The translations under genes were made by a program, and so were the position numbers. Shown piece by piece: positions 56,791-58,365 of a stretch of DNA of 64,000 nucleotides. Source of the DNA: Geovibrio thiophilus. GTDB lineage: Bacteria; Chrysiogenota; Deferribacteres; Deferribacterales; Geovibrionaceae. The DNA lies in contig NZ_CP035108.1 in the NCBI RefSeq assembly GCF_004087915.1, positions 682,001 through 746,000 of the forward strand, given 5' to 3'. Under the pieces are notes generated by a model. The model saw nothing but the letters and a program-made list of their open reading frames with translations. It made no database searches and was not told the DNA's origin. Positions within the stretch are counted from its first letter, which is position 1. Each line of letters starts with the position of its first letter.

Positions 56791-57294
56791 ATGTTCTGGA
56801 AACAGAAAACAGAGGATACACAGACATTCTCAGACCTCATAAGAGGCTTGCAGCACTCCATAAGCTCCGCCATGGAGATGATCGAGGCACGGAACATCGA
56901 AATACTTGGCAGGTATTTTGACCCGGCAAGCGGAGAGCCTGTCACCCGCCGCCTCCGTCTGGATGAGGAAACTGTCATAGACGTTCCTCTTATATCAGTT
57001 GTGAATCCCTCCACTCTGAATATCAAAGAGGTGGAGATGGATTTCTCCGTGAGGGTTAACCAGACGGAGCTCAAGCAGCGGCAGCCCGACACGTCACTTT
57101 TAAACAATAAGGAGAACAAGCTTTACGCAAACCGTGTCGAGCGTTCAAGCCTGAATGTGAGCTTCGGCGGCAAGGGCGAATCTGTGATGAATGTACGGGT
57201 GAAGTTCAGAGCCGCCCCCATACCGGAGGGGATGTCCAGAATAATAACCGATTTTGACAAAACCATACAGCCCAGAAAAGAAACTAATAAATAA
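56791..57294 (+). CDS. DUF2589-like protein A
   Basis: 167 residues, soluble. An N-terminal helix (FSDLIRGLQHSISSAMEMIE, 13-32) is followed by a beta-rich domain with VPLISVVNPSTLNIKEVEMD (65-84), a polar loop (90-115) and the ending RAAPIPEGMSRIITDF (140-155). The same two motifs occur in the next protein, so the pair are paralogues. The family has no established function. Directly upstream, 56637-56790 is AT-rich with no convincing promoter, although TTGCTT-N17-TAATGT near 56715 is possible. Confidence 0.75.
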   Translation: MFWKQKTEDTQTFSDLIRGLQHSISSAMEMIEARNIEILGRYFDPASGEPVTRRLRLDEETVIDVPLISVVNPSTLNIKEVEMDFSVRVNQTELKQRQPDTSLLNNKENKLYANRVERSSLNVSFGGKGESVMNVRVKFRAAPIPEGMSRIITDFDKTIQPRKETNK

Positions 57295-57305
57295 AGGAGT
57301 TTACC

Positions 57306-57869
57306 ATGCCTAACGTTGGTTCGGAGTTCAGGGGACTGCCCATTGAGGAGCTCATAGCCGCGCCTCTTAAGGCGGCGTGCGACGCGCAGAAGCATCTGGC
57401 GGTTTCAGCTTTTGCTTTTATGAAGGAGATAGGCTTTGACGGCGATAAGCCGAGGCTGCTTGAGTTTAATCTTCAGCGACCGCTGGGTGATCAGGGCGGA
57501 GTGTCAAATGTGAAGGTGCAGGCGCCTTTTATCGGACTCGTGCCGATTCCGTCGCTCCTTGTCGATGATGTTCAGATCGACTTTCAGATGGAGGTCACAG
57601 ACACCGCAACGGCAAAGGAGACAGATTCAAAGAGCGTGGACGCTGATGTTAACGCTAATTTCAAGTTCGGTCTATTCGGCAGCGGCGGGATCAAGATTCA
57701 CGGCAATGTCACCTCCACAAGAGAAAACACCAGAAGCACCAACCAGACAGCGAAATATCAGGTTCGTGTTTCCGCCAGACAGCAGCAGCCCACGGAAGGC
57801 TTAAGCCGCCTCATGGACATTATGGCATCCTGCGTTACGCCGATTCCTGTTTCCGGCAGCGGCGGCTGA
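57306..57869 (+). CDS. DUF2589-like protein B (paralogue of A)
   Basis: 187 residues, soluble. Helical N-terminus (LPIEELIAAPLKAACDAQKH, 11-30), then APFIGLVPIPSLLVDDVQID (73-92) and QQPTEGLSRLMDIM (160-173), which align with protein A. A Gly/Asn-rich region (115-150, FGLFGSGGIKIHGN) and a SGSGG tail are extra. AAAGGAG precedes the ATG. It lies 11 nt after protein A and 19 nt before the nuclease-like gene, so all three appear to be one operon. Confidence 0.75.
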   Translation: MPNVGSEFRGLPIEELIAAPLKAACDAQKHLAVSAFAFMKEIGFDGDKPRLLEFNLQRPLGDQGGVSNVKVQAPFIGLVPIPSLLVDDVQIDFQMEVTDTATAKETDSKSVDADVNANFKFGLFGSGGIKIHGNVTSTRENTRSTNQTAKYQVRVSARQQQPTEGLSRLMDIMASCVTPIPVSGSGG

Positions 57870-57888
57870 CGGAAACAGGAGAATACTC

Positions 57889-58365
57889 ATGTCTTTCTCG
57901 GCGCTTTTCAGAAGGGAAATAGTTAACTGGATTGGTGAAAACGAGCGTAAAATAAACTATATCAGCAGGCTGCCCGGCGGTTTTGAAATATGGTTTCAAT
58001 GCGAAATGGCATGCTTCTTTAATTCTAATAACGTGTTCTTTGAGCGTGAGGTGAATGTATACCGTAAAGCGGATTTAAAGGCTGACTTTTTACTTCATTT
58101 TGATGGCGAAAGTTATGTGGCTGAACTGAAATGCCAGTCATTCTATAACCGCGGGGCATTTTATCCGAGCATAATAAGAGATATAGAGAAGTTTTCGCAG
58201 ATAAAGCGTGAATACAAGGACTATAGGAAACTTGTTTTCGGGCTTATTACAGACGGTTACAGAGGGGAACTGCTGGAGTATGAGCGGGGTGAGAAGGAGT
58301 GCGAGCTGTGTTCTATAGACACCAGAGGTGCTTTGGGCTACGCTCTTATCTCTTTCAGTCCTTAA
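57889..58365 (+). CDS. PD-(D/E)XK nuclease-like protein
   Basis: 158 residues, not a family I can name. The arrangement E39 ... D66 (LKADFLLHF) ... E79-x-K81 (YVAELKCQ), on successive predicted strands, followed by a helix (SIIRDIEKFSQIK), fits the PD-(D/E)XK nuclease-like core. No DNA-binding domain is visible. It may be an active nuclease or an inactive relative. AGGAG precedes the ATG. Its 3' end overlaps the convergent amidohydrolase gene by 11 bp. Confidence 0.6.
   Translation: MSFSALFRREIVNWIGENERKINYISRLPGGFEIWFQCEMACFFNSNNVFFEREVNVYRKADLKADFLLHFDGESYVAELKCQSFYNRGAFYPSIIRDIEKFSQIKREYKDYRKLVFGLITDGYRGELLEYERGEKECELCSIDTRGALGYALISFSP

Follow-up and report, generated by a model that had tools for sequence, protein, structure and literature searches.

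What do two DUF2589 genes do together, and is the nuclease-like gene that follows them a fixed or an exchangeable part of their work? This question is raised by a locus of Geovibrio thiophilus in which a shorter (A) and a longer (B) DUF2589 gene are followed by a third gene, C. The locus lies within the window, i.e., the whole stretch of 64,000 nucleotides that was analysed (Table 1).

Table 1. Coordinates of the features discussed, given for the window or, where a locus is named before the colon, for that locus
Feature	Coordinates	Strand	Description
Gene A	56791-57294	+	167 aa, shorter DUF2589 paralogue; PF11655, E 6.7e-17
Gene B	57306-57869	+	187 aa, longer DUF2589 paralogue; PF11655, E 7.7e-37
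Gene C	57889-58365	+	158 aa, PD-(D/E)XK-like; the gene of the unit that varies
B residues 101-146	57606-57743	+	column statistics over 77 B proteins; pLDDT <50 over residues 101-145
C codons D66 to E79-x-K81	58084-58131	+	putative catalytic core; from sequence and alignment
Gene D, examples	L014:8920-9192; L016:8948-9208
Proteins with a 'WWRRLFRK'-like stretch, examples	L082:8847-9251; L063:7374-7904; L202:6980-7369

The three-gene unit and its proteins

An earlier note on this DNA had read three plus-strand genes separated by 11 and 19 nt, of which the first two form a DUF2589-like pair of paralogues with two common motifs, while the third carries E39, D66 and E79-x-K81. These observations stood. 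The ORFs are real, with 11 nt between A and B and 19 nt between B and C; both paralogues score above the curated PF11655 cut-off of 23 (A 62.7 bits, B 127.4 bits; Pfam), their two motifs line up when the proteins are aligned, and the four residues are all present in C and invariant in three sequences, of which the farthest is 24% identical. As read from the sequence, Shine-Dalgarno-like motifs precede B (AAAGGAG) and C (CAGGAGA). The unit is flanked by two minus-strand genes named from their sequences, a DMT-type permease gene on the left and an N-formylglutamate-amidohydrolase-like gene ("FGase") on the right, and the end of C overlaps a converging gene. The unit consists of A, B and C only: no immunity gene stands beside C, as there is no further ORF in the unit of the window or in that of a relative from the same genus (G021), no holin match was obtained with Pfam, and no peptidoglycan hydrolase is encoded among the ORFs around the pair.

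Because direct BLASTP comparison of A with B alone gave 23% identity (E 0.001), it is the family profile that carries the case for their paralogy. Neither protein matched NCBIfam, PADLOC or PHROGs. For B, an AlphaFold model (pLDDT 63) comprises a long helix and, modelled with fair confidence, a small beta region. This middling-confidence model matched no solved fold in pdb_via, where the best hit (Z 3.9) concerned the helix only and the hairpin-like stretch of residues 101-146 was unmodelled. Against PDB sequences the best match was ribosomal (E 0.66), and a viral structure library yielded one nameless relative, A0A516MP19, and nothing else below E 0.5. Across 77 B proteins, residues 101-146 show Ser/Thr-rich ends and a strong alternating hydrophobic pattern of the beta type, albeit at low model confidence, and the family consensus has a glycine-rich turn within this stretch. 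It is possible that these residues form a membrane hairpin; the pattern presumably recalls the hairpins of beta-pore formers.

Protein C is harder to place. It found no match in Pfam at E <= 1, none in NCBIfam or PADLOC and nothing useful in a PDB sequence search, while PHROGs returned a weak match to an intron-nuclease profile (E 0.034). Its single-sequence AlphaFold model is unusable (pLDDT 38), with a crude order of a helix, a strand with D66 and a strand with the ExK motif. In plasmids, tblastn delivered one weak match (E 0.06), a Streptomyces protein with 24% identity to C over 123 residues. If C, its relative in G021 and the Streptomyces protein are aligned, 17 columns are invariant, including E39, D66, E79 and K81, which are all conserved between the two proteins of the genus as well. 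Both relatives gave sub-threshold matches to the DpnII-MboI profile (PF18742), with E values of 0.13 and 0.16 and in the same stretch. C shares the order E, D, E-x-K with PD-(D/E)XK restriction enzymes of the DpnII-MboI type. However, it differs from these in that C itself gave no PF18742 match at E <= 1 and no methylase gene adjoins it. Taken together, C probably holds a PD-(D/E)XK-type domain and is a putative active nuclease. Two further candidate relatives were discarded: a Bacteroidales match to the C profile (G283, E 6.5e-4) is a lipoprotein by sequence, and a viral match (L180) aligned over 33 residues only.

History of the unit in its genus and clade

Among 50 genomes of the phylum, five carry DUF2589, with two genes each, and C turned up in only two, the window genome and G021. 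In G021, A, B and C occupy the same site as in the window. Over aligned residues the two genomes are 95.2% identical in A, 98.9% in B and 37.2% in C, at dN/dS values of 0.025, 0.014 and 0.26, respectively. For six flanking genes, identity ranges over 77.7-95.5% and dS from 0.71 to 1.30; dS of A (1.12) and B (0.65) was compared with that range. Because of these identities, the low dN/dS values and the dS alongside the flanking genes, A and B are strongly constrained and were not recently transferred between the two species. A and B evolve slowly, while for C there are two options: either it diverged fast, or a distant homologue took its place. A third species of the genus (G022) shows the same gene order without A-B-C, and its FGase and permease genes are 37 bp apart. 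Since this site is empty while that of G021 holds all three genes, A-B-C was gained or lost as one unit of ~1.7 kb.

A tree of 156 B proteins places the window in a clade of twelve (support 1.0), whose other eleven members stem from Bacteroidales, Fibrimonadales and Treponema. The gene next to the pair differs within this clade. In four loci (L020, L022, L025 and L026), and more distantly in L029, it encodes a family with an invariant Gly-Cys and an invariant His; four members scanned (L020, L022, L026 and L029) gave no Pfam match, and the pattern presumably recalls deamidases of the CNF1/BLF1 type. In L021 an OTT_1508-like deaminase follows B, L024 has a GH19 protein and L028 an uncharacterised protein of 146 aa, while the uncharacterised neighbour in L030 is 26% related to a protein that adjoins another DUF2589 cluster, L201. 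The window has C, and no such neighbour is evident in L023 and L027. In the order to which L021 belongs, one to three DUF2589 matches were found in 8 of 149 genomes.

One might argue that C is a mere passenger, functionally unlinked to A and B. Its deviating G+C content (0.42 vs. 0.49 and 0.54) would fit this, as would the findings that, within the material examined, C adjoins DUF2589 in this genus only and that the search turned up just one other relative, a solitary gene on a Streptomyces plasmid. However, the gap before C is short (19 nt) and C has its own ribosome site, A-B-C is whole in two species and wholly missing in the third, and other members of the clade have a different gene in place of C. 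We thus regard the passenger explanation as highly unlikely.

Neighbours of DUF2589 pairs in bacteria and phages

To place the pair, relatives of B were collected from one genome per species (84,980 species) and the best 80 of 159 were fetched. With five records from plasmid and phage collections, and without one duplicate (L052, which repeats L016), these gave 84 loci, in which ORF calling followed a simple length criterion, so that GC-rich loci contain spurious ORFs. Within this set (best 80 of 159, plus five, minus one), exactly two DUF2589 genes are present in 78 of the 84 loci, the core genes lie on one strand in all 84, and 66 contain a third conserved gene of ~90 aa, here called D (Table 1). 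All seven whole genomes checked likewise have exactly two DUF2589 genes. Gene D was found in 3 of the 50 genomes of the phylum, all three among the five DUF2589 carriers, but not in the window genome, and it is absent throughout the clade of the window. The DUF2589 core spans Bacteroidota to Bacillota, plus a large phage group. Besides pairs, some Bacteroidales clusters (L197:6447-8978 and L201:6507-8502) have runs of three or four DUF2589 genes, followed by an M15 peptidase in L197 and by a relative of the L030 partner in L201.

The most frequent neighbours of the pair are enzymes that degrade the cell wall. Pfam assigned GH19 (8), GH108 (4), Amidase_2 (3), CHAP (3), N-acetylmuramidase (2), phage lysozyme (2), GH25 (1) and peptidoglycan-binding domains among 100 neighbour proteins, a sample drawn from an automatic list that was supplemented manually with ~11 lysozyme-like proteins and from which other members were omitted. 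In a far control of 96 random proteins, each at a distance above 4 kb (100 random ORFs less four from L015), no wall hydrolase appeared among the 25 families listed of 108. Employing HMMs made from hydrolase sequences on the 84 loci (best 80 of 159, plus five, minus one), a peptidoglycan hydrolase was detected within 2.5 kb of the core in 53, on the same strand in 52 of them, and none nearby in 31. Nine peptidoglycan hydrolase families are represented beside the pairs. Near the pairs 56 HMM matches fell in 406 kb, against 1 in 709 kb far from them, a contrast that is inflated because the seeds came mostly from near matches. An N-terminal hydrophobic stretch is lacking in 37 of the 43 seed hydrolases, the six exceptions being GH25 proteins of Cyclobacterium.

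Other kinds of enzymes occur as well, such as a patatin-like phospholipase whose gene immediately follows D in L071. In Vibrio neptunius (L057, 267-4445), a DUF2589 gene stands amid immunity-type genes, namely GAD-like plus Tdi1 C-terminal and SUKH (SMI1/KNR4). Some neighbours were noted by eye. Proteins of 130-200 aa with a 'WWRRLFRK'-like stretch (Table 1) often lie between pair and hydrolase and possibly form one diverse family. In Rheinheimera (L034:6104-6556), a protein of 151 aa upstream of the pair carries AHG and DACES motifs and looks caspase-like, yet gave no Pfam match. Related proteins with a signal-peptide-like start are found beside a GH19 gene, or replacing GH19, in three loci (L051:9288-9860, L082:9879-10442 and, in Mucispirillum, L090:3016-3597); they are possible periplasmic hydrolase inhibitors.

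A fixed system of pair plus nuclease was considered and dismissed, as two C seeds found no BLAST match among the ORFs of the best 80 loci. The earlier note had inferred that two structural or binding subunits together with a nuclease would suit a defence, competence or effector-type system, and had named a wide occurrence of DUF2589 pairs without a nuclease-like partner as refuting its reading; such pairs are indeed common, mostly beside peptidoglycan hydrolases. Its interpretation held in part, for the true pair, the nuclease-like third protein and a seemingly effector-like setting, whereas a dedicated system of pair and nuclease was not supported. In the gene neighbourhoods the pair is the constant part and the adjoining gene the variable one, and it is likely that the enzyme is exchanged as cargo, the nuclease being one of several such partners.

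Phages carry the pair too. In IMG/VR, the best 80 of 91 relatives were taken (L100-L179), with some near-duplicate contigs kept in. Two DUF2589 genes were present in 78 of these 80 contigs (best 80 of 91), with less than 60 bp between them in 62 of the 78, and an endolysin-like gene (PHROG 3000/33083) was present in 57 of the 80 at a median distance of 868 bp. In L172 a GTA-type holin gene comes first, then A and B, then a phage lysozyme gene. A gene matched by the same endolysin HMM precedes the pair in Flavobacterium (L091), a locus that is itself among the HMM seeds. As read from the sequences, many phage contigs contain YqaJ-like and RecT-like genes, often with the pair downstream. The pair is also found beside a terminase-like gene (L170) and in a repair region (L101), and lysis is therefore not its sole phage setting. 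All 79 phage B proteins form one clade (79/79, support 0.945) apart from that of the window, and PHROGs v4 holds no family for the pair, phage versions included.

The unit could be envisioned as an envelope-lysis or release cassette, kin to phage lysis genes, in which A and B aid or regulate an endolysin in a holin-, spanin- or anti-endolysin-like manner and the nuclease of the window is a late addition, for example degrading released DNA. The endolysin-like genes near pairs in 57 of the best 80 of 91 phage contigs, the gene order of L172 and the signal-less lysozymes that adjoin bacterial pairs speak for this scenario. However, the pair of the window has no adjoining holin or hydrolase, the phage B clade is separate from its own, deaminase, phospholipase and nuclease partners misfit lysis, and some phage pairs stand by terminase or repair genes. 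We thus consider the lysis cassette somewhat unlikely, while anyone weighing the phage context most would call the unit a variant of lysis-cassette-derived release.

Known systems and a possible delivery role

How does the unit compare with systems that move such enzymes? In Type 10 secretion a holin moves a signal-less peptidoglycan hydrolase, with or without spanins (PMC13284979). Lysis cassettes and Type 10 secretion thereby resemble the DUF2589 pairs, whose usual neighbour is likewise a signal-less peptidoglycan hydrolase and which in phages lie near endolysin genes. They differ in that the window pair has no adjoining holin, spanin or hydrolase, and DUF2589 is not among the components named in the passages of PMC13284979 consulted. 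T6SS and eCIS likewise combine a constant carrier with a variable enzyme, of wall hydrolase, phospholipase, deaminase or nuclease class. However, VipA (PF05591) and the tail sheath (PF17482) are both absent from the window genome, and delivery by T6SS or a contractile sheath was therefore rejected there. In Phocaeicola plebeius (L038:6128-9931), an AAA ATPase gene and a phage-type tail-sheath gene flank an incomplete DUF2589 gene; this arrangement was not accepted as support for sheath delivery, being a single case and involving a copy without the N-terminal helix region. Effector-immunity and toxin-antitoxin pairs differ from the unit by the missing immunity gene beside C. PF11655 itself is a family without assigned function, and neither the pairing nor gene D nor the variable enzyme partner appears in its Pfam description line.

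A different scenario is intracellular defence or abortive infection, with A and B as sensor or scaffold and C cutting nucleic acid in the infected cell. A small unit subject to gain and loss with a fast-changing nuclease-like gene would be in line with it, as would a genome without T6SS or sheath secretion machinery, and if C were held inactive, an immunity gene would be unnecessary. However, none of the three proteins matched PADLOC-DB 2.0.0 at E <= 10, most partners of the pair are wall hydrolases, which have no cytoplasmic substrate, and the pair is carried by phages themselves. Intracellular defence thus appears quite unlikely to us, and the role in defence or competence suggested in the earlier note is not indicated, given that A, B and C all lack a PADLOC match.

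No described system that could be compared has a DUF2589 pair as its core, and the unit of the window does not belong with contractile injection, lysis cassettes and Type 10 secretion, catalogued defence or effector-immunity pairs. We tentatively propose, as a possibility somewhat short of an even one, that the DUF2589 pair is a carrier or permeabilising unit for an exchangeable enzyme without signal peptide, here the PD-(D/E)XK-like C. According to this proposal, A and B would be the conserved core of a widespread module that opens or crosses a membrane, and the partner would be its working part. To act, an adjoining enzyme without signal peptide would need to get out of the cytoplasm or into another cell; A and B might bind, export or admit it, and its target might be a different cell or the envelope of the producer itself. 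The enzyme would usually be a phage-type peptidoglycan hydrolase, in the clade of the window often another putative effector enzyme, and in the window C. Since no holin is present beside the window pair, A and B may do holin-like work. One might speculate further that this is a new kind of delivery unit: two small soluble subunits, the longer one with a pore-hairpin-like stretch, that assemble across a membrane and let a signal-less enzyme through with no need of holin, needle or sheath, serving endolysin release in phages and exchangeable antibacterial enzymes, here a nuclease, in bacteria. This more specific idea we consider unlikely.

The carrier proposal draws on the pairing in bacterial and phage loci, on the nearby hydrolases of nine families, mostly without an N-terminal hydrophobic stretch, on the other enzymes in the same position, on the near-identical A and B beside a divergent C at a site that is empty in the third species, and on the lack of VipA and tail sheath in the window genome. 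The position of L057 amid immunity-type genes counts in its favour as well, in one relative. Its main difficulty is the missing immunity gene beside C. It is weakened, too, by the 31 of 84 loci (best 80 of 159, plus five, minus one) that lack a hydrolase nearby, and C might be fast-evolving rather than exchanged. In the archaeon Archaeoglobus fulgidus, the DUF2589-related genes AF0414-AF0417 are upregulated on lactate (PMC3949148), the sole mention of DUF2589 in the literature searched. Such a response would not be predicted by a role with wall enzymes and appears to misfit a wall-only role.

A two-gene core is tied to at least nine hydrolase families and to other enzymes, yet has no described function. 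The site in three species of the genus, which holds the unit with one version of C, the unit with a very different C, or nothing, offers a clean test. If enzymes are indeed carried or admitted across membranes by the pair, this would be a route of release or delivery distinct from holins, T6SS and eCIS, and DUF2589 pairs would be a guide to many unrecognised antibacterial enzymes.
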